A DNA stretch of 64,000 nucleotides from the NCBI GenBank assembly GCA_028278425.1, contig JANQEJ010000037.1, forward strand, positions 1 to 64,000. Reading direction: 5' to 3'. The notes beneath the pieces are model-generated. The model did not search any database, was not told where the DNA came from, and saw only the letters and a list, made by a program, of their open reading frames with translations. Below, one piece after another: positions 53,931 through 64,000 of this stretch (positions within the stretch are counted from its first letter, which is position 1; every line of letters begins with the position of its first letter). Origin of the DNA: Planctomycetota bacterium. Its GTDB lineage: Bacteria; Planctomycetota; UBA1135; GCA-002686595. Both the position numbers and the translations under genes were made by a program.

Positions 53931-54158
53931 TAGGGGCCTGTCCGAGTATTGGCCGCACCCGCACGGCGCCCTCTCGAACGCAGCCCCGCGTCGGGGGCCC
54001 CTTCGAAACGCTCCGCAGGACCGTTTCGATTCCGCCTACGCGGAACCGGGGCTTACCTTCCTCAGCGTATCGCGGTGGATACGCGGTCGTCGTCGCTCCT
54101 TGATCCGCCGCGAGAGATGCGAGCGTGCGGGCACGGCGAGTACTCGGACAGGCTCCTA
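53931..54158. repeat. Inverted-repeat element (35-base imperfect arms) between two gene ends
   Basis: Arms 53931-53965 and 54124-54158 match in reverse complement with several mismatches. The core GCCTGTCCGAGTA is identical. Left of the element is the stop of the coiled-coil gene (53923); the right arm contains the TAG stop of the minus-strand membrane protein gene. The interior has other short hairpins (for example CGTATC-GCGGTG-GATACG) but no gene. It resembles a REP-like or miniature element and separates two convergent genes. Confidence 0.7.
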
Positions 54159-55799
54159 ATCGTCTTTCGCTGCGGCGAGCCGCACTTCCTCGGCCAGGGA
54201 GGTGCGGTACCACCAGCCGACCTCATCGGTGGTCGCCGCGCGTTCCCAGGACTCCATGTCGTCCAGCAGGAGGACGATGGCGTCGTGATCGGGGCGGTCG
54301 GCGTCGGGCAGGAGGACGTGATCGACGCCCGCCAACTGGAGGTCGAGCGCCACGGCCGCTGGGTCCGGCACGCGCCGGCCGGTCACCAGGTCGAAGAGAT
54401 CCGGAGCGGTGCGGCTCCACCGGAGCAACCGTTCCCCGTCGGGCTCGGCGAACGGGCCGAAGAGCGCCGGCCGCTCGTGCCGCGTCTGCCAAGTCGACGC
54501 GACGTGCGGCCCCCACGCGTGCGTGAGCGTGCAAACCGCTCCGCCGCGGGAACCGCCGTCGTCGCGCGGAAGCTCGGCGATGCGCTCGACGGCCTGCGGG
54601 TGCGCGACCTCGAAGGTGGTCCAGGGTCCGACCCAGAGCTCGAAGAGCATCCAGACGCCGAGCGCCGCGGCGATCCGCCGACGCGGCGCGGCGCAAAGGG
54701 CCTGGAACCCCATCCCGGCCGCGATCGCGGCCGGCAGGAGGACCAGGGACCAGGCCGCCCCGGGCGGCACGACGCGCCACCAGGGCGCGGGCAGGAGCAC
54801 GAGCGCCACGAGCGCCCAGCGCCGCGCCCGCGGAACGCGCCACGCCGCGAAGCCCGCCAGAGCGACCAACGCGAGGCCCGGGTGCAGCTCGACCTCCTTG
54901 TCGAACGCGAGGCCCAACCACGGGTGAAGATCCGCGGGCAGAAGCAACGACCCCGGTCCCATCCGCGGGACGTCGCCGTGCGCGCCGAAGGTGAGAAACA
55001 GCTCACGCCCGCCGGCCAGCTCGCGGGCGAGCGGCCACGCGGCGAGCCCGGCCGCGGCGACGAACCAGAAGAGCGCGATCGGGTCTAGGAGGCCCCCGCG
55101 CGGCGCGACGCGCTCGTCCTCGGCGGTCGCGGGCGCCATGGCCGCAAGGACGAGAGCGCAGACGAGGAGCAGGAACGCCCCCTGGACCGAGGCCAGAGCC
55201 TGGAGGCCGAAGACCGCCCCGGCCCCGAGAGCCGATCCCCAACGGCGCTCGCGCACCATGCCGAAGCGCGTCCGCATCCATCGGAGGAAGAGCAGGAGAA
55301 AGAGCGGCGGCAGCGGTCCGCCGACCGCATAGGGGTCCTCGAGCGCGCCGTGCACCGCCGCCGGCGCGAAGCTCCAGCCGAGGGCGGCGACCGCGGCCGC
55401 CCACGGGCCGAGCTCGAGCCAGCGCGCGAGGAGCCACGCGGCGGCGAAACCCGAAGCAAAGAGGAAGAGGATCAGCGCGTTGAGCGCGAACGGCGTCCCG
55501 CGCCAGCGCTGGAGCGGCGCGGTCAGCCTGGCCCAGAGCAGCGGGTGCCCTTCGGTCAGGAGCGAATGCCCCTCGGGGTGGAACACCTCGCGCGCGAAGT
55601 ACGCGGGCTCACCGCGCTCGGCCGCCTCGCGCGCTCGCCAGAGCTTCCAGACCCACGCGTGCTGCCCGGCCGTCTCCACCGTGGAGCGTGCCGGGTCATG
55701 GGAGAGCGAGCGGTCCGCCTCTCTGGCCAGGGGCCACGTCCACGCCACCGCGAGAACCAGCCCCGCCAGGAGCACGGCGAAGGGTTCGTACGCTCGCAC
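54156..55799 (-). CDS. Polytopic membrane protein, glycosyltransferase-C-like
   Basis: A 547-residue membrane protein starting at GTG 55799. The first helix (FAVLLAGLVLAVAWTWPLA) is followed by a periplasmic loop with HAWVWKLWRAREAAERGEPAYF and REVFHPEGHSLL, a pattern (W...W...G.P.F....F.PEG) seen in GT-C-type lipid-sugar transferases and related membrane proteins. About ten further helices and a C-terminal soluble region of about 150 residues follow. The donor and acceptor are unknown. It is divergent from the Nudix gene with a 23-base gap. Its stop lies in a repeat arm. Confidence 0.72.
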   Translation of the reverse strand: MRAYEPFAVLLAGLVLAVAWTWPLAREADRSLSHDPARSTVETAGQHAWVWKLWRAREAAERGEPAYFAREVFHPEGHSLLTEGHPLLWARLTAPLQRWRGTPFALNALILFLFASGFAAAWLLARWLELGPWAAAVAALGWSFAPAAVHGALEDPYAVGGPLPPLFLLLFLRWMRTRFGMVRERRWGSALGAGAVFGLQALASVQGAFLLLVCALVLAAMAPATAEDERVAPRGGLLDPIALFWFVAAAGLAAWPLARELAGGRELFLTFGAHGDVPRMGPGSLLLPADLHPWLGLAFDKEVELHPGLALVALAGFAAWRVPRARRWALVALVLLPAPWWRVVPPGAAWSLVLLPAAIAAGMGFQALCAAPRRRIAAALGVWMLFELWVGPWTTFEVAHPQAVERIAELPRDDGGSRGGAVCTLTHAWGPHVASTWQTRHERPALFGPFAEPDGERLLRWSRTAPDLFDLVTGRRVPDPAAVALDLQLAGVDHVLLPDADRPDHDAIVLLLDDMESWERAATTDEVGWWYRTSLAEEVRLAAAKDD

Positions 55800-55822
55800 G
55801 CCCGAGAAACTACCATCCCGCC

Positions 55823-56359
55823 ATGGAACGCCATCCGTCGATCGAGCTTCTCGCCTCCGACACGCTCTACCGGGGCCGCGTCTTCGAGCTGGTCGTGGAG
55901 ACGCTGCGCCTGCCGTCGGGGCTGGAGCAGCGGATCGAGGTCGTCGACCACCCCGGCGCGGTCTGCATCGCCCCGCTTCTCGACACGGGGGAGCTGGTCC
56001 TGGTGCGCCAGTACCGCCACGCGACGGGCGACTGGCTGTTGGAGCTGCCGGCCGGGCGCCTCGAGGCGGACGAGCCGCGGCGCACCGCCGCCGAGCGCGA
56101 GCTGGAGGAGGAGACCGGCTACCGTGCCACGGAGTGGGAGGAGCTCGCCGACTTCTATACCGCCCCCGGCTTCTGCTCCGAGCGGATGACGCTCTACGTC
56201 GCGCGCGGACTGCGGGAGGTGGAGGGCGGCGGTCTGGCCCACGACGAAGACGAGGAGTTCGAGCTCGTGCGCCGCCGGCCCGAGGACCTGCTCGGCGGCG
56301 ACGTGCGCGACGCGAAGACGCTGCTGGCGATCGGGCTGCTCCTCGCGCGCAAGGCGTAG
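55823..56359 (+). CDS. Nudix hydrolase, ADP-ribose pyrophosphatase-like
   Basis: A 178-residue Nudix enzyme of the NudF/ADP-ribose pyrophosphatase type. The Nudix box is complete: G-RLEAD-E followed by seven residues and RELEEETGY. It begins with the typical strand pair LYRGRVFELVVETLRLPSG and continues VDHPGAVCIAPLL, RQYRHATGDWLLELPAGRLE. It would remove toxic ADP-ribose or nucleotide-sugar by-products. ATG 55823 is chosen as the upstream frame is non-coding. It is embedded on the opposite strand of a long minus-strand open frame, discussed separately. Confidence 0.93.
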   Translation: MERHPSIELLASDTLYRGRVFELVVETLRLPSGLEQRIEVVDHPGAVCIAPLLDTGELVLVRQYRHATGDWLLELPAGRLEADEPRRTAAERELEEETGYRATEWEELADFYTAPGFCSERMTLYVARGLREVEGGGLAHDEDEEFELVRRRPEDLLGGDVRDAKTLLAIGLLLARKA

Positions 56360-57293
56360 GGGCGGCGTCGACGAGGTAGTCGTACCCGCCTTGCGTCCCG
56401 GTCAGCCGGCCGCGCCGGTCCAACCGAAGAACCGCGCCCGGCGCGACGAGGAGGAGGTCGCCACCCCTCCGCCCAACGGCACGCTCGAACACCTTGAGCG
56501 GGAGCCCGTTCGCCTCCGACTCCACGGGACCGCCCGGGCCGAGCAGGAGCCCCGCGGCACCGGCCGCGGGGACGATCCACACGCGGGCCTCGCCCGGCAC
56601 CGGAGCCATGTGCGCCTCGCGCCAACCGGTCGCATGGTCCCACAGCGGGCGAAGTCCGGCGTCGAGGAGGTGGACGCGGCCCTCCTCCTCCGCGTACGCC
56701 CACCACGATCCGTCGGGCCCGACCGCGACGTCGCGAACCGGCCCCGCGACGCGGCGCGCGGCGAGAAGCGCCGGTGGGTCGTCCGCGTCGTAGACGCGCA
56801 GCTCGCCCTCGCCGTCGCCGACCAGGACGCGCCGCGCCCGTGCCGCCGCGCAGGTGGCTCCGGGAAGGCGCACGACGAGCTTGGCGACGCCGTGGCCCTC
56901 GAAGCGCAGTACGCCCTCCGAGACGACGACGAGCAGCGCGCCGTCCGCTCCGGGCGCCGCGTGGAGCGGCGGCTGCACCGGCCGGCGGTCCAGCGGCTTC
57001 CCGGAGGCGTCGAAGCGGAGCACCGCGTGGCTCCCCCGCGGCGAGCCCTCCTCCGCGGCGATCACCCAGGTGCCGCCGCCGGGTCGCGGCGCGACCCGCA
57101 GGGGGAAGGGAACCGGCGCGGAGACGGACTCGTAGAGCTCCGCGTCGAGCCCGACGACGCGCCCGGCGTCCCGGTCGGCGATCCAGAGCCGCACCTCGCC
57201 CGGCTCCCAAGCCGGGTGGAGCGCCGCGCTCAGCCAGCCGAGGAGAATCGTCGTCCCGAGGCCGACGGCCAGACCGAGAAGCGCTCGTCCCAT
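56360..57293 (-). CDS. Membrane-anchored beta-propeller-like protein, 3' end undefined
   Basis: From ATG 57293 a frame runs with a membrane anchor (about 5-27), then a beta-propeller-like repeat region of about 285 residues (VRLWIADRDAGRVVGLDAEL, GPDGSWWAYAEEEGRVHLLDAG). The protein-like part ends near GGYDYLVDAAP at 56360. No in-frame stop occurs there: the frame stays open, antisense to the Nudix gene, until it joins the membrane protein gene and stops at 54156. The antisense part is Arg/Pro/Ala-rich nonsense. The true gene may have lost its stop, or it may be one long fusion overlapping the Nudix gene. Function unknown. Confidence 0.5.
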
Positions 57294-57347: not shown

Positions 57348-57593
57348 TCAGCTCCGGCCCGCGACGCGGTAGGAGTTCCACACGAGGAACGCGAAGCCGC
57401 CCACCACGCAGAGCACCATCGCGAGCATGAAGAGGATGGAGTAGTTGAAACCCTCCATCAGCCGCGAGTGCTCCTCGGAAGCGACCGCCCCCTTGCAGCT
57501 CTCTCACGTCCAGCCCGAGGGCGCGAGGAGCACCCAGGCAAGAGCGGCCAGAACGGCCTGGCGGAGAAGCGGGAACGGGGAACGCGGCGTCAT
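57348..57593 (-). CDS. Small membrane selenoprotein (UxxC) at the end of the cytochrome oxidase operon, TGA at 57504-57506 read as Sec
   Basis: Read through one in-frame TGA, this is an 81-residue protein: basic start, hydrophobic segment (about 10-25), then Sec30-Glu-Ser-Cys33-Lys, a short loop, a second membrane helix (about 51-72) and a basic tail. Charges place U-E-S-C on the periplasmic face. Small CxxCK-plus-one-helix proteins of similar layout are found beside oxidase genes in planctomycete-like genomes, so Sec replaces the first Cys. Without recoding the product is a 29-residue stub. A GGUC-loop hairpin follows the TGA. It lies 20 bases after the DUF420 gene. Function, perhaps copper or thiol handling in oxidase assembly, is inferred. 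Confidence 0.75.
57477..57492 (-). promoter_or_regulatory. Candidate bacterial SECIS hairpin with GGUC loop
   Basis: On the minus strand GGGGGC (57492-57487) pairs with GCTTCC (57482-57477), including two G-U pairs, around the tetraloop GGTC (57486-57483). The loop starts 18 bases after the TGA. The E. coli fdhF SECIS also has GGUC in its apical loop at nearly this distance. Confidence 0.6.
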
Positions 57594-57613: not shown

Positions 57614-58054
57614 CTACTCTACCGCCGCCTCGGGGTTCCACCAATAGAGGCAGAGGTACACCAGGACGCCCGTCACCGACACGTACATCCAGATCGGCCA
57701 CGTCCAGCGCGCGAGGCGCCGGTGGCGGTCCCAGTCGCGTCGGTACGCCCGCCAGAGCGTCAGGAGGACCATCGGCAGGTTCACCGCGGCGAGCACGACG
57801 TGCGTGAGGAGCATCGCGTAGTACGCGACCTTGACCGCCCCCTCGCGCCGGAAAGGCGTGGGACCGACCTCGGACTGCACGCCGAAGTGATAGGTCAGGT
57901 AGCTCGCCAGGAAGGCCGCGCTGACGACGCTCGCGGCGATCATCACGCGGGCGTGCGCCACGCGCCGGTCGCGCCGGATCAGGACGAAGCCCACGGCGAG
58001 GAGCACCGCCGCCGTGGCGTTGAGGCTCGCGTTGAGCGCGGGGAGGTTCGACAC
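57614..58054 (-). CDS. DUF420 family membrane protein
   Basis: A 146-residue protein starting at GTG 58054, with four membrane helices: NATAAVLLAVGFVLI, VMIAASVVSAAFLASYLTYHFG, YYAMLLTHVVLAAVNLPMVLLTL and IWMYVSVTGVLVYLCLYWW. DUF420 proteins are often encoded beside heme-copper oxidases and SCO and may assist assembly or copper handling. It begins 8 bases after the SCO stop. Confidence 0.9.
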   Translation of the reverse strand: MSNLPALNASLNATAAVLLAVGFVLIRRDRRVAHARVMIAASVVSAAFLASYLTYHFGVQSEVGPTPFRREGAVKVAYYAMLLTHVVLAAVNLPMVLLTLWRAYRRDWDRHRRLARWTWPIWMYVSVTGVLVYLCLYWWNPEAAVE

Positions 58055-58062
58055 CGCGCCCT

Positions 58063-58713
58063 TCAGTCGACCGCCGATCCCTCGAGGAACTTCACGCGCT
58101 CGACGAGCAGCGCCAGCTCGTCGCGGTCCTCGGAGTCGTACCAGCCGCGGATCCTGCCCCGCGCGTCGATCACCGCGAGCCGGCGGTCGTGCGTCAGGAG
58201 GTCGCCGGTCTCCGGATGCGGCTCGTCGAGGCGCGCCACGGGCATCTTGAAGCCCCCGCGCACCAGCGCGTGGATCGCCTCCTCCTCGCCGGTGAGAAAC
58301 GTCCAGCGCTCGGGATCGGCGCCGTAGGCCTCCGCGTAGCTCGCGAGCCGGGCGGGATGGTCGCGCGCCGGATCGATCGTGATGGAAACGAGGTGCGCGC
58401 CGGTGCCTTCGATGCGGCGCGCGACGTCGCTCATCGCCGCGGTGATCCGCGGGCACGGGCCGGCGCACGTCGTGAAGATGCTCGCCATGACCCACGTGCG
58501 GCCGCGCAGGGTCTCCAGTGTGACGGTCTCCCCCGTCTGGGACGTCAACTCGAAGTCCGGGAGCGCTCCGAAGTCGGTCGGGTCGTCCGCTTCAGCGGCC
58601 GCTTCGGGCCCTTCGCTCCCGCCGTAGCCGGCGCGCGTTGGTTCGCCCCCTCCGCAGGCCGCGGCCAGAGCGCCGACGACGCCCGCTGCGAGGGTCCGAC
58701 GCCAGACGTTCAG
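58063..58713 (-). CDS. SCO1/SenC copper-delivery lipoprotein, probable CTG start
   Basis: A 216-residue thioredoxin-fold protein that loads or maintains the CuA site of cytochrome oxidase. It has a lipobox (ALAAAC), the copper motif TTCAGPCPR (CxxxC) and the distal His in LLTHDRR. No ATG, GTG or TTG is in frame near the signal peptide; upstream frame is shadow of cox4. CTG 58713 fits, with AGGAG (58721-58725 complement) 7 bases ahead and the cox4 stop only 4 bases away. It is part of the oxidase operon. Confidence 0.88.
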   Translation of the reverse strand: MNVWRRTLAAGVVGALAAACGGGEPTRAGYGGSEGPEAAAEADDPTDFGALPDFELTSQTGETVTLETLRGRTWVMASIFTTCAGPCPRITAAMSDVARRIEGTGAHLVSITIDPARDHPARLASYAEAYGADPERWTFLTGEEEAIHALVRGGFKMPVARLDEPHPETGDLLTHDRRLAVIDARGRIRGWYDSEDRDELALLVERVKFLEGSAVD

Positions 58714-58717
58714 ACGT

Positions 58718-59107
58718 TCACTCCTCTTCGGCGCGTTCCGAGTGCGCCTTCTCGTCGCGCAAGAGGAGGTTCTGGAAGCCTCCGGTCTCGTTGTCGTACA
58801 TGGTCCCGATCGGGTGATCGAGCACGTCATCGCCGTGGCTGACGTCGGGGCTGACGTAGCCGTAGATCACCAGGATCAGGAGCGGCGTCGGAAGGATCAG
58901 GCTCTTGACGACCCAACCCTCGAACTTGAGGTGCATGAAGTACACGGCGATCAGCCAGCCCTTGTAGAAGGCGCAGATCCCGAGGCCGCTCCACAGCAAC
59001 ATCTTGTTCCAGTCCGCTCCCGCCATCCCCCAGACCACCTCGACGACGGTGGCGACGAAGAGCAGTGCGAAGACCTTTTCGGCGTTGAAGTGTCCCTTTT
59101 CCGACAT
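58718..59107 (-). CDS. Cytochrome c oxidase subunit IV (prokaryotic type)
   Basis: A 129-residue protein with three helices: VFALLFVATVVEVVWGMAG, LLWSGLGICAFYKGWLIAVYFMHLKFEG and ILPTPLLILVIYGYVSPD. The middle helix with KGWLIAVYFMHLKFE is the hallmark of the prokaryotic subunit IV. The charged C-terminal tail is longer than usual. It follows the cox3 gene by 9 bases. Confidence 0.92.
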   Translation of the reverse strand: MSEKGHFNAEKVFALLFVATVVEVVWGMAGADWNKMLLWSGLGICAFYKGWLIAVYFMHLKFEGWVVKSLILPTPLLILVIYGYVSPDVSHGDDVLDHPIGTMYDNETGGFQNLLLRDEKAHSERAEEE

Positions 59108-59116
59108 GGCTTTGGA

Positions 59117-59746
59117 CTAGAACAGGTAGACGATGGTGAAGAGGAGCACCCAGACGAGGTCGACGAAGTGCCAGTAGAGACCGGCAAGCTCGATCCCGAG
59201 GTAATTCCGCTCCGAATAGCCGCCGCGCAGCGCCTTGAACCAGGCGCAGACCAACCAGATCACGCCGACGACCACGTGGGACCCGTGGAAGCCGGTCATG
59301 ATGTAGAACGTCGACCAGAAGATGTCGACGTTGGGCAGCGAGCCGTGTTTCACGAGCTCGAAGTACTCGTAGACCTGCACGCTGACGAACGCGCTCCCGA
59401 AGAAGATCGTCAGGCCGAGCCACATCAGGATCCCGCCGCGATCGCCGCGTTGCGCGGCGAAGAGCGCGCGCACCATCGTCCACGAGCTGATGATCAGGAC
59501 GAACGTGTTGATGGCCGTTAGGAACACGGCCAGCCTGTTCTCCGGGTTCGGCCACGCCGCGGTGCCGCTCCTCAGGATCACGTACGCGCCGATCAGGCCG
59601 GTGAAGAACATCACCTCGGTGGCGAGGAAGAGCCAGATGGCGAACTTCCCGCGCTCGACCGGCGGTCCGCTGTCGTAGTCGTAGACCGGGTGGTGAGCTC
59701 GTGGGGCGTCGACCGCGGGGTCGTAGGTGGCGATGGCGTCGCTCAT
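59117..59746 (-). CDS. ctaE: Cytochrome c oxidase subunit III
   Basis: A 209-residue protein with five helices: KFAIWLFLATEVMFFTGLIGAYV, FLTAINTFVLIISSWTMVRAL, LMWLGLTIFFGSAFVSVQVYEY, MTGFHGSHVVVGVIWLVCAW and LYWHFVDLVWVLLFTIVYLF. The FHGSHVxxG and YWHFVDxVW blocks are typical of subunit III. It begins at ATG 59746, 5 bases after the ctaB stop. Confidence 0.95.
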   Translation of the reverse strand: MSDAIATYDPAVDAPRAHHPVYDYDSGPPVERGKFAIWLFLATEVMFFTGLIGAYVILRSGTAAWPNPENRLAVFLTAINTFVLIISSWTMVRALFAAQRGDRGGILMWLGLTIFFGSAFVSVQVYEYFELVKHGSLPNVDIFWSTFYIMTGFHGSHVVVGVIWLVCAWFKALRGGYSERNYLGIELAGLYWHFVDLVWVLLFTIVYLF

Positions 59747-59751
59747 GGGGA

Positions 59752-60663
59752 CTAGAGGGCGAGAACCCGGTGCACGACCGGGTCGAAGAGGACCAGGGAG
59801 AAGGAGAGCGGCAGGTACGCGAGCGAGGTGAGGAGCACCGCTCGGGCTCGCTTCCGCGTCTCCCGGTGGGCGAAGGCCGCGGACGCGGCCAGGTAGGTCG
59901 AGCCGAGGACCAGCGCGCCCGCCGCGTAGACGAGGCCGGCGTCGCCGCGCACCGCCGGCAGGAGCGACACGGGCAGGAGCACCAGCGCGTAGAGGAAGGA
60001 CTGCCGCCCCGCGCAACCGTCGGAATCGGGCAGCGACGGGAGCATCTTCATGCCCGCCCGGCGGTAGTCGTCGCGGTACAGCCACGCGATCGCGAGAAAG
60101 TGCGGGAACTGCCAGACGAAGATCACGCCGAAGAGCATCCAAGCCCAGCCGCCCGGCGCGCCGGCGATGGCGACGTAGCCGATCAGCGGCGGCATCGCGC
60201 CGGGGATGGCGCCGATCGTCGTGTTGAAGGACGAGAGCCGCTTGAGCGGCGTGTAGACGAGCACGTACGCGAGCAGCGTCGCCAGCGCCAGCAGCGCGGA
60301 GAGCGCGTTGAACTCCACGGCGAGCCCCGCGGTTCCGGCCGCGGCGAGCGCCGCCGCGGCGAGCACGGCGTCGCGCATGCGCACCCGCCCGGTGACGAGC
60401 GGGCGCTGCCGCGTGCGCTCCATGCGCGCGTCGAGGTCGCGCTCGGCCACCTGGTTGAAGATGCCGGCGGACGCGGCGGTCAGGCCGACGAAGCAGGCGG
60501 CCAGGGCGACGCGCAGGAGGTCGGCGCCGGGGCCCGAGGCGAGCAGCGCCCCGGTGAACGCCGCGAGGACGACGAAGACCGCGATGCGCGGCTTCGCCAG
60601 GACGAGCCAGTCGGCGGGCCCGGCGGCGCGCGGCGTCGAGACGGTGGTCGTCTCGACCCTCAT
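59752..60663 (-). CDS. ctaB: Protoheme IX farnesyltransferase (heme O synthase)
   Basis: A 303-residue UbiA-family membrane enzyme that attaches a farnesyl group to heme B. It carries NQVAERDLDARMERTRQRPLVTGR, the Asp-rich prenyl-diphosphate motif NxxxDxxxD, with the second DxxxD region in YRDDYRRAGMKMLP. About eight membrane helices. Its start overlaps the ctaA stop (ATGA), so heme O and heme A synthases are coupled in the operon. Confidence 0.95.
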   Translation of the reverse strand: MRVETTTVSTPRAAGPADWLVLAKPRIAVFVVLAAFTGALLASGPGADLLRVALAACFVGLTAASAGIFNQVAERDLDARMERTRQRPLVTGRVRMRDAVLAAAALAAAGTAGLAVEFNALSALLALATLLAYVLVYTPLKRLSSFNTTIGAIPGAMPPLIGYVAIAGAPGGWAWMLFGVIFVWQFPHFLAIAWLYRDDYRRAGMKMLPSLPDSDGCAGRQSFLYALVLLPVSLLPAVRGDAGLVYAAGALVLGSTYLAASAAFAHRETRKRARAVLLTSLAYLPLSFSLVLFDPVVHRVLAL

Positions 60664-61637
60664 CGCGCGCCCTCGGGGCTGGGCAGCCCGGCCCGCGGCG
60701 CCGCGAGCGGCCGCGCCTGGAACAGGCGGAAGGACCAGAGGGCGATCGCGACGGTCTGCGTCAAGAGCAGCGCGCCCCCGAGCACGTGCGCGATCGAGAG
60801 CACCCACTCCGCCGGCCCGATCGCGCCGGGACGGAAGCCGACCCAGGCCATCATCCCGAGGAGGATCTGCAGGCCCAGGAGGAGATGAAGGCGCAGGGCC
60901 GCGGGCCGGAGCACGTTTTCACCGCCGCGCTCCGCCGCGGAACGCAGCGCGCCGGCCAGGGCGAGAACGGCGAAGAAGGCCAGCCCCGCGCCGGCGAAGT
61001 GCAGGGCGAGCCAGAGCTCGTTCCCGGCCTCCGGCTGCGGGCGGAGCGCGTGGCGGTAGACGGCGCCGAGCACGACCTGCCCGAAGACGACGAGCGAGGC
61101 GGCGACCGCGAGGAACCGCAACGCGCCCCCACCTTGCTCGCGCCGCGTCGGCGTCGTGCGCCAGCGCGCCGACGTCACGAGCGCCGACACGCCGAGGAGG
61201 CAGAACACCGCCTGCGCGGCCACGCCGTGCAGGAAGGCGAGATTCGGGCTGTTCTCGAGCACGCGGAACCCGCCGAGGGCCCCCTGCGCACAGACGGCCG
61301 CGAGCGCGGCGGTCGCGGTCCACGCGGCGGAGCGGCGCGCGGAGCGCCACGCGCAGGCGCAGGCGGCGATGGCGGCGAGTCCGACCAGCACGCCGAACAG
61401 CCGGTGGGTGTGCTCGACGAAGGTCTCGGTGTCGCGGAGCCACTCCTCGATCGGGAAGAAGAGCAGGAAATGCCCCTCGGCGATCAGCCAGCCCTCGACC
61501 GCCATCCCCGCTCCGAGCGTGGTCACCGATCCGCCGAAGAGGACGAGCGGCACGGCGCACGCGAACGCGGCCACCGCCAGGCGGTGGGCCCAGCGCAGGC
61601 TCGTCGTCGTGTCGATCGCGTGGCTCGCTTGGCTCAT
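60660..61637 (-). CDS. ctaA: Heme A synthase
   Basis: A 325-residue membrane protein that oxidises heme O to heme A. It has eight helices in two similar bundles with the heme-ligand histidines in HRLAVAAFA and EHTHRLFG, HGVAAQA and LHFAG-type positions. No Cys pair is seen in the first loop. It follows cox1 by 13 bases and overlaps ctaB. Confidence 0.92.
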   Translation of the reverse strand: MSQASHAIDTTTSLRWAHRLAVAAFACAVPLVLFGGSVTTLGAGMAVEGWLIAEGHFLLFFPIEEWLRDTETFVEHTHRLFGVLVGLAAIAACACAWRSARRSAAWTATAALAAVCAQGALGGFRVLENSPNLAFLHGVAAQAVFCLLGVSALVTSARWRTTPTRREQGGGALRFLAVAASLVVFGQVVLGAVYRHALRPQPEAGNELWLALHFAGAGLAFFAVLALAGALRSAAERGGENVLRPAALRLHLLLGLQILLGMMAWVGFRPGAIGPAEWVLSIAHVLGGALLLTQTVAIALWSFRLFQARPLAAPRAGLPSPEGAR

Positions 61638-61650
61638 CGGGGGTCGGCGC

Positions 61651-63471
61651 TCAGAGCTTGCGCGTCTGCGGGAGGTAGTCCTCCTCGACCTCGGGACCGC
61701 TGTACTCGTAGGGACCGCGGTGGACCTCGAGTTGGTGGTCGAAGTTGCCGTGCCCCGGCGGCGACGGCGCCTGCCACTCGAGCGTGGTCGCCTGCCACGG
61801 GTTGCGGCCGACGCGCCGTCCCCAGAACAGCGAGTGGAAGAAGTTGATCACGAAGAAGATCTGCCACGCGAAGAGTGCGAAGGCGCAGTAGGAGATCGCC
61901 TCGTTCAACGGCTGCAGGTGCGCGTAGATCTCGTAGGAGTACGGGTCCGCCGTGCGCCGCATCAGCCCGGCGATGCCGAGCTGGTGCATCATGTAGAAGA
62001 CGCCGTTGGTGAAGATGAACGTGCCGAAGAAGTGAATCTTCCCCAGCGTCTCGTTCATCATCCGCCCGAACATCTTCGGGAACCAGTGGTAGATCGCCGC
62101 CAGGATCGCGAACACCGAGCCGGCGAACACCACGTAGTGGAAGTGCGCGACGACGATGTAGGTGTCGTGGATGTACACGTCGACCGGCGTCGCCGCCATC
62201 CAGATGCCGGACAGGCCGCCGATGATGAACATCGACACGAAGGCCAGCGCGTAGAGCATCGGCGTCGTGAACCGGATGCGCGCGCCCCACAGCGTGCCGA
62301 GCCAGTTGAACACCTTGATGGCCGACGGGAGCGCGATCATGATCGTCGAGACCATGAACACCATGCCGACCGTCGGGTTCATGCCCGACGTGAACATGTG
62401 GTGTCCCCAGACGATGAAGCCGAGGCCGGCGATGCCCGCGATCGAGTAGACCATCGGCTTGTAACCGAAGATCGGCTTCCGGGCGTGCACCGCGATGATG
62501 TCCGAGGCGAAGCCCATCGCCGGCACGACCATGATGTAGACCGCCGGGTGGCTGTAGAACCAGAACAGGTGCTGCCAGAGCAGCGGGTGGCCGCCGGCCG
62601 CCGTCGCGGTCTCCGGGTTGGCCACCGCGTAGTCGACCCCGACGTTGTTCACGACCAGGTTGGTCGGCGTGAAGAAGCCGGTGTGCAGCACGCGGTCGAA
62701 GAGCTGCATGAAGCCCGCCGCGGTCAGGACGGGCAGCGCGAAGAGCTGGAGGATGGCCGCGACGCCGAGCCCCCAGATCGAGAGCGGCATCCGGTAGAGC
62801 GTCATCCCCGGCGCGCGCATCTTCGCGATCGTCGTGACGTAGTTGACCGCGCCCATCATCGAGGACACGCCCACCCACGTGAGCGCCAACAGCCAGTAGG
62901 TCTGCGCGCTCGCCGAGCCCGGGGCCGCGCTCGTGATCGTCGAAAGCGGCGGATAGGCGGTCCAGCCCGCCGCCGGGCCTCCGCCCTCCGCGCCGAAGCC
63001 GAGCATGAGGAAGAAGATCGCGGGGAGCATGGCCCAGTAGCCCATCATGTTGAGCTTCGGGAAGGCCATGTCCGGCGCGCCGATCATCAGCGGGATGAGG
63101 AAGTTCCCGAACGCGCCCGTGAGCAGCGGGATGATGACGAAGAAGATCATCACCGTCCCGTGCATCGTGAAGAGCATCGTGTAGTACTCAGGCGAGACCA
63201 CCCTCCCCGTCTCGGGGAAGAGCAGGCGTCCGATCACCGGCATCTCCTGCCACGGGAAGGCGAGCTGCCAGCGGATCGCCATCGCCAGCAGTCCACCGAG
63301 CACCAGGAAGATCAGCCCGGTGAACATGAACTGCATCCCGATGACCTTGTGATCGGTCGAGAAGATGTACTTCCGGATGAAGCCGATCTCGTGGTGCTCG
63401 TGGTGGACGTGGACCGTCCCCTCGGGAGCGAGGCCGAGCGGGGCCGGTTCGGCGCTGGGGGGGGGATTCAT
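61651..63471 (-). CDS. ctaD: Cytochrome c oxidase subunit I (type A2-like)
   Basis: A 606-residue heme-copper oxidase subunit. It has an N-terminal His-rich tail (HVHHEHHE), twelve helices, heme ligands in LFTMHGTVMIF and VVAHFHYV, and the CuB/Tyr helix WQHLFWFYSHPAVYI. In that helix YSHPAVY replaces GHPEVY, the A2-type D-channel pattern known from Rhodothermus-like caa3 oxidases. The start ATG overlaps the cox2 stop by one base. Electron donor should be cytochrome c. Confidence 0.96.
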   Translation of the reverse strand: MNPPPSAEPAPLGLAPEGTVHVHHEHHEIGFIRKYIFSTDHKVIGMQFMFTGLIFLVLGGLLAMAIRWQLAFPWQEMPVIGRLLFPETGRVVSPEYYTMLFTMHGTVMIFFVIIPLLTGAFGNFLIPLMIGAPDMAFPKLNMMGYWAMLPAIFFLMLGFGAEGGGPAAGWTAYPPLSTITSAAPGSASAQTYWLLALTWVGVSSMMGAVNYVTTIAKMRAPGMTLYRMPLSIWGLGVAAILQLFALPVLTAAGFMQLFDRVLHTGFFTPTNLVVNNVGVDYAVANPETATAAGGHPLLWQHLFWFYSHPAVYIMVVPAMGFASDIIAVHARKPIFGYKPMVYSIAGIAGLGFIVWGHHMFTSGMNPTVGMVFMVSTIMIALPSAIKVFNWLGTLWGARIRFTTPMLYALAFVSMFIIGGLSGIWMAATPVDVYIHDTYIVVAHFHYVVFAGSVFAILAAIYHWFPKMFGRMMNETLGKIHFFGTFIFTNGVFYMMHQLGIAGLMRRTADPYSYEIYAHLQPLNEAISYCAFALFAWQIFFVINFFHSLFWGRRVGRNPWQATTLEWQAPSPPGHGNFDHQLEVHRGPYEYSGPEVEEDYLPQTRKL

Positions 63472-64000
63472 CAGTCCGCCTCCGCGAGGTCGTCGGTTCC
63501 GTTGCTGTAGAGGGCGTCGCGCTGGTCGGCGAGCCACCTCTCGAATTCATCCTTCGGGATCACGTGGACCCGGCCGGCCATCTTGTAGTGGCCCCAGCCG
63601 CAGAGCTCCGCGCAGATCAGGTCGTAGCTCCCCTCCTCCGCCTGGAACCAGACGGGGATGGTCAAGCCGGGCACCGCGTCCTGCTTGAGCCGGAACTGCG
63701 GCACGAAGAAGGCGTGGAGCACGTCCCGCGACTTCAGGTGGAAGACGACGGGCGTGTCCGCCGGCACGTAGATGTCGTACGCCGACTCGATCACGTCGAC
63801 GCCGTCGAAGTTGCCCGAGGGATCGGCGTAGCGCGCGCGCCAGTCGAACTGGCTCGCGTAGACCTCCATCAGCGGCTGCTCCGCCGAGTAAGGGCCCTCG
63901 GTCCCGTCGGGGAACTTGCCCATGTGGCTCGTGAACTTGATCTCGGCCCAGGCGCCCATCTGGGAGAACGCGATGATCAAGAGCAGCACCGACGGTACCG
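63471..64000 (-). CDS. ctaC: Cytochrome c oxidase subunit II, 5' end missing
   Basis: A C-terminal piece of subunit II, cut by the window edge; the frame is open to position 64000, so the GTG at 63989 need not be the start. One membrane helix (VLLLIIAFSQMGAW) is followed by the cupredoxin domain with YASQFDWRARYAD and the CuA motif CAELCGWGHYKM. No cytochrome c domain is fused at the C-terminus. It leads the oxidase operon. Confidence 0.93.
   Translation of the reverse strand, partial: VPSVLLLIIAFSQMGAWAEIKFTSHMGKFPDGTEGPYSAEQPLMEVYASQFDWRARYADPSGNFDGVDVIESAYDIYVPADTPVVFHLKSRDVLHAFFVPQFRLKQDAVPGLTIPVWFQAEEGSYDLICAELCGWGHYKMAGRVHVIPKDEFERWLADQRDALYSNGTDDLAEAD

Follow-up and report, generated by a model that had tools for sequence, protein, structure and literature searches.

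What does a TGA codon mean when it interrupts an otherwise gene-like frame at the end of a cytochrome c oxidase operon? The question is raised by positions 57348 to 57593 of the window, i.e., of the whole 64,000-nucleotide stretch of planctomycete DNA analyzed here. The 81-codon frame 57593-57351 (minus strand) contains a single in-frame TGA at 57506-57504, flanked on both sides by hydrophobic stretches, and it translates as MTPRSPFPLLRQAVLAALAWVLLAPSGWT-U-ESCKGAVAS...WNSYRVAGRS if the codon is read as selenocysteine (Sec, U). The original prediction placed this TGA at the start of a CxxCK motif just after a hydrophobic segment and had the frame run through a second membrane helix to a stop at 57348. 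Both statements hold: homologs carry the first Cys of CxxCK where the window frame has TGA, and the AlphaFold2 model (helices 7-29, 31-38, and 40-80; mean pLDDT, 82) supplies the second helix with its segment 40-80. The features are collected in Table 1.

Table 1. Features of the candidate selenoprotein gene and of the oxidase operon in the window
Feature	Positions	Strand	Remarks
UxxC selenoprotein gene (candidate), 81 residues	57348..57593	-	Stop codon TGA 57350-57348 included; homologs with same TGA
Signal peptide/first hydrophobic helix, residues 1-29 (predicted)	57507..57593	-	AF2 helix 7-29
Sec codon TGA, residue 30 (predicted)	57504..57506	-	Aligns with Cys in homologs
Cys33 codon, Sec partner in U-x-x-C	57495..57497	-	Positions 30 and 33 are the sole invariant columns in 47 homologs
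Extended SECIS stem-loop (putative)	57466..57503	-	-18.4 kcal/mol for folded 42-nt stretch
SECIS core hairpin (putative), 6-bp stem GGGGGC/GCUUCC, apical loop GGUC	57477..57492	-
Transmembrane part of C-terminal helix, residues about 50-73	57375..57446	-	AF2 helix 40-80, pLDDT 91-96
DUF420 (CtaM family), directly upstream	57614..58150	-	PF04238, E 5.2e-42; start codon uncertain
SCO1/SenC copper chaperone	58063..58830	-	PF02630, E 7e-23
Cytochrome c oxidase subunit IV	58718..59107	-	PF03626
Cytochrome c oxidase subunit III (coxC)	59117..59782	-	PF00510
ctaB, heme O synthase	59752..60807	-	PF01040
ctaA, heme A synthase	60660..61637	-	PF02628
coxA, subunit I	61651..63537	-	PF00115
coxB, subunit II	63471..63989	-	PF00116; CuA motif; may begin outside window

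Conservation of the TGA codon

Is the TGA a property of one assembly, or of a family of proteins? In a read-through search, 24 of 61 genomes proved to encode the protein. Beside the window's own, 20 genomes, all of the same family, have a single TGA, which lies at the aligned site, and in the other 3 the site holds Cys (L037, CAMCK; L038, CPTCR; L040, CALCK). Cys lies opposite the TGA in homologs beside SCO and DUF420, the alignment that had been proposed as a check. A scan of named genomes gave 25 loci, all with Sec at the first motif position (UxxC) except L064; those that carry a taxon name are Planctomycetota MAGs. A profile search then covered 392 Planctomycetota genomes, with the family present in 113 and a TGA at the motif in 46 of these (17 family codes). 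The Sec position is the first in 33 of the 46 (UxxC; f1, f9, f15, f21, f24, f35, f43, f48, f65, f75, and f86) and the second in 13 (CxxU; f52, f62, f70, f71, f77, and f81), while 58 genomes were scored as Cys, about 20 of them from a match free of stop codons and not base by base. The original prediction knew neither this phylum-wide distribution nor Sec at the second position, nor a mature protein that probably begins with Sec.

The two motif residues are the only invariant columns in an alignment of 47 homologs. UxxC takes the place of a CPxC type and CxxU that of a QCxMC type, and these halves separate weakly in a family tree that has few columns and poor support; its count of 11 label changes is approximate and does not distinguish gain from loss. 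One genome (G147) has a Sec form of the UPSC type alongside a Cys form of the CAMC type (L083 and L161), so both halves can coexist. After the TGA, dN/dS ranges from 0.09 to 0.6 (about 0.1 in close pairs and 0.2 to 0.6 in more distant ones), which indicates that the frame beyond the codon is under purifying selection.

A further observation concerns related small proteins with vicinal Cys-Sec (AQSCU and KSCU), in place of CxxU, in G349 (L206, about 5829, and L159) and G333 (L156). The G349 protein sits in a coxB-coxA-coxC cluster, and a paralogue of the Cys form (L079) is encoded separately in this genome. These relatives possibly represent a third Sec arrangement.

A putative SECIS hairpin downstream of the codon

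The original prediction also held that a hairpin with a GGUC loop lies 18 bases after the TGA. The hairpin is there and is conserved, at a distance from TGA to loop of 17 bases, not 18; it starts 12 bases past the TGA, with stem 57492-57487 paired to 57482-57477 around loop 57486-57483. The fold around it has a z score of -1.9. A published model of the bacterial SECIS element (PMC13188914) has an apical loop of 3 to 9 nt with an early G, a distance of 16 to 37 nt, and an MFE of at most -7.5, and the window hairpin agrees with each term (GGUC, 17 nt, and -18.4 for the whole fold).

The comparative evidence is drawn from Sec and Cys forms of the family. All 34 Sec forms whose hairpin keeps the register of the window hairpin have the GGTC loop, versus 1 of 12 Cys forms, and their stem is 94 to 100% paired at each position, whereas most pairs are lost in the 12 Cys homologs. 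Two-sided changes are found in three of the six stem pairs, a degree of covariation equaled in 1 of 500 shuffles. The codons GCG-GTC are invariant in all 34, compared with 50% GCG among Ala codons and 38% GTC among Val codons downstream in the same genes; the relatedness of the genes makes any probability attached to this invariance too small, but the contrast still holds. Judged by a common criterion, 37 of the 41 Sec forms have a model-like hairpin, versus 12 of the 37 Cys forms (MWU p 3e-7). Tests against synonymous shuffles behaved differently: MFE did not separate Sec and Cys forms, and a GGTC-type hairpin reached p < 0.05 in 1 of 41 Sec forms, with single-sequence p values mostly of 0.1 to 0.4. 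Because GC-rich codons form hairpins easily, these tests do not discriminate, and our case is built instead on covariation, the invariant loop, the position of the hairpin, and the contrast between Sec and Cys forms. Rfam gave no match, only a chance hit to mir-922.

Does the hairpin follow the codon when Sec changes position? CxxU forms generally have a hairpin with a GG or GU apex 18 to 22 bases past their own UGA, and in most of them it has moved along with the codon. In four loci of one genus (L055, L060, L061, and L072), the hairpin is 15 bases further downstream (GAGGG-CGGGU-CCCUC), with relaxed codons at the site where it otherwise lies. Such a shift is a natural test of SECIS spacing.

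Could the TGA nevertheless be an ordinary stop, ending a 29-residue peptide ahead of a frame that has decayed or is not used, or might it be a sequencing error? A mechanical ORF call does end at the TGA, and an alternative-frame ORF overlaps. However, the same TGA recurs in more than 45 genomes, the protein beyond it is conserved with dN/dS of about 0.1 in close pairs, and the hairpin covaries, so that we find this reading scarcely credible; a pseudogene or sequencing error is refuted by the conservation.

Selenocysteine machinery and the identity of the protein

The original prediction had named selA, selB, selC, and selD as genes to look for. The genome of the window encodes tRNA-Sec with anticodon TCA (74.8 bits), selA (495.8 bits), selB (357 bits), and selD (313.9 bits). 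Its selD has an in-frame TGA of its own (L095, C155:566-1507), and SelD is probably also a selenoprotein here. Across the phylum, SelB scores above the cutoff in 40 of the 46 genomes with a Sec form versus 23 of the 58 with a Cys form (Fisher p 8e-7, uncorrected for relatedness); the six Sec genomes without a match are incomplete, fragmented assemblies. Among close relatives, SelB is present in 58 of 61 genomes and is therefore uninformative, being nearly universal, so the phylum sample is the one that informs. That UGA might be read as a different amino acid, through a changed code or suppression, is a general possibility to which no result points, and we reject it as having next to no chance: TGA is the stop at the end of the selenoprotein gene itself and of other genes, relatives have Cys at the site, and the full Sec machinery accompanies a SECIS-like hairpin.

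Based on these comparisons, we consider it virtually certain that the hairpin after UGA 57506-57504 would cause this codon to be decoded as selenocysteine. The original prediction of a selenoprotein is upheld, and none of the findings that it had named as counting against itself, from missing machinery to homologs lacking Cys at the site, has occurred. There is strong comparative evidence that the small membrane protein of the cox operon belongs to a selenoprotein family absent from the current catalogue. An inventory from 2026 of 119 prokaryotic selenoprotein families (PMC13188914, Table 1) has no corresponding entry by name, motif, or domain; the main text of deep-Sep (2025) contains nothing corresponding; and a targeted literature search gave no earlier report, leaving aside a supplementary table of PMC4807772 on putative selenoproteins of two planctomycetes. 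No model in Pfam or NCBIfam matched the 81-residue protein, and sequence and fold searches of the PDB gave no useful match.

The predicted mature protein

Where would the Sec residue reside? Immediately N-terminal to it is G-W-T, the end of a c-region like those cut by signal peptidase I. Position -3 is Gly or Ala, and position -1 is Ala, Thr, Gly, or Ser, each in 42 of 43 UxxC forms; in 11 of 12 CxxU forms, Ala-Gln directly precedes the Cys. This pattern conforms to the signal peptidase I rule, and we infer a cleavage that leaves Sec or Gln-Cys first. A lipoprotein was rejected on inspection of the sequence, there being no lipobox before Sec. The mature form is likely a one-helix membrane protein that faces the periplasm and starts with Sec (or Gln-Cys). 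Arg residues after the C-terminal helix point to a topology that is probably N-out, C-in, which would put the Arg-rich C terminus inside. The model is all-helical, and the protein has no PDB fold match and no Pfam match, i.e., no thioredoxin fold; as modeled, it is not a classical disulfide reductase. Within the Sec-form family of the window, no conserved His or Met was found.

A proposed role in oxidase assembly

The neighbors of the gene are our main guide to its function. The order, by Pfam, is coxB-coxA-ctaA-ctaB-coxC-cox4-SCO-DUF420 and then the selenoprotein gene, all on one strand, and the frame starts 20 bases past the DUF420 stop; the earlier description of gene-like spacing in a cox-SCO-DUF420 operon is borne out. 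At about 50 loci, the gene lies behind SCO-DUF420 or among cox genes, in several other families too and for CxxU and Cys forms as well. Linkage to cox genes is seen at most loci, and at 6 of 20 wider loci no cox genes were detected near the family gene. In one cox cluster (L193, G153), the UxxC gene is ahead of SCO and DUF420, not behind them. Downstream of the selenoprotein gene, a 1045-aa ORF (54156-57293, minus strand) runs antisense over a NUDIX gene (55688-56359, plus strand); relatives match just about 1 kb of it, and it is probably two genes plus a chance open stretch.

DUF420 is CtaM, on which the activity of aa3 and caa3 oxidases depends, and proteins that join Sco- and CtaM-like domains have been reported in planctomycetes (PMC9145763, PMC13344008). 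TlpA, a thioredoxin of Bradyrhizobium, reduces both Sco and CoxB ahead of metallation (PMC6696091). Cox11 (CtaG) and PCuAC were not found in the genome of the window (an assembly about 89% complete), and a DsbD/CcdA-type protein was, which could serve as an outward electron supply. We posit that signal peptidase probably cuts just before Sec and leaves a product of about 50 residues on a one-helix anchor, whose N-terminal Sec-x-x-Cys would lie at the periplasmic surface, next to SCO, CtaM, and CoxB. There, it would most likely serve as a selenol/thiol reductant in the membrane, either keeping the Cys residues that bind copper in SCO and in the CoxB CuA site reduced or reducing copper itself. 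This account as a whole, a selenoprotein with a part in oxidase biogenesis, is, in our judgment, the best explanation overall (probability of roughly 0.8). On gene order, the most likely role is that of a thiol/selenol partner of SCO and CtaM in copper-site assembly. This order agrees with the earlier proposal that the protein handles thiols or copper while the oxidase is assembled, a role that we infer from it. A role in oxidase biogenesis seems quite probable from the conserved neighborhood, and the narrower choice of a reductant in preference to a copper carrier is tentative, at somewhat less than even odds.

Can the Sec-Cys pair instead hold copper? The selenoprotein may carry copper(I), or pass it along a relay of ligands, from CtaM to SCO and CoxB; Sec and Cys, together with the free N terminus or with Met in QCxM[C/U], would then bind the metal and do no redox work. 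The neighbors are copper proteins, CtaM is proposed to export copper that Sco then binds (PMC13344008), Met precedes Sec in 10 of 12 CxxU forms, and the genome yielded neither PCuAC nor Cox11. Set against this, the window's Sec-form family has no conserved His or Met, there are two ligands only, and a CxxC pair in a short tail fits redox chemistry too. We rank this reading second and regard it as unlikely. A selenol/thiol reductant for copper-site assembly is favored over it by the CtaM and TlpA literature, by the lack of detectable Cox11 and PCuAC, and by the DsbD/CcdA-type protein.

Many selenoproteins are peroxidases or repair enzymes. Might this one serve the completed oxidase as an accessory subunit, clearing peroxide or mending oxidized thiols nearby, with no part in assembly? 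It is encoded together with structural subunits, but the adjoining genes are those of assembly factors (SCO, DUF420, ctaA, and ctaB), and the homolog went undetected in several genomes of the same family. We place this last among the roles and think it improbable.

Implications and relation to known systems

The selenol/thiol partner proposed here would belong to a phylum-wide family of membrane selenoproteins that mature the heme-copper oxidase of Planctomycetota with selenium, the same Cys pair having turned to Sec at the first or the second position by lineage, each with its own SECIS element, and with a mature protein that begins at the reactive residue or one residue before it; we hold this full picture to be slightly better than an even bet. 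The data suggest that Planctomycetota use selenium in building or servicing their main respiratory enzyme. If so, this would be, to our knowledge, the first known case of a selenoprotein that helps build a respiratory oxidase. The family, apparently uncatalogued and common in a large phylum, is easily missed because annotation stops at UGA, and it would tie selenium to cytochrome c oxidase assembly, a process in which several bacterial factors for the copper sites await assignment. What does Sec add at each position? With its UxxC, CxxU, and CxxC variants, the family offers a natural set for this question.

How does the protein compare with known systems? It shares its proposed job, its membrane anchoring, and a dithiol motif with Bradyrhizobium TlpA (PMC6696091, PMC9145763), but it has no thioredoxin fold, an all-helical model, and no Pfam match. 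SCO1/SenC is encoded in the same operon and has a periplasmic Cys pair as well; SCO, however, has a thioredoxin-like fold, a CxxxC motif, and a His ligand, whereas the selenoprotein has U/CxxC spacing and no conserved His. CtaM, the product of the adjacent gene, is likewise a membrane protein of oxidase assembly, but it is unrelated in sequence and has four or five helices (PMC9145763). PCuAC, CtaK, and Cox11 deliver copper to oxidases, as the selenoprotein may do, but it has no match to them. The catalogued UxxC and CxxU selenoproteins of bacteria (PMC13188914) also have Sec in a CxxC-type pair, a SECIS hairpin, and Cys homologs; in contrast, the present case is a membrane protein of one or two helices, encoded in a cox operon, with Sec at either end of the same motif. 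We regard the family as new among selenoproteins and its genomic role as new too, with Sec inserted by the standard bacterial mechanism.
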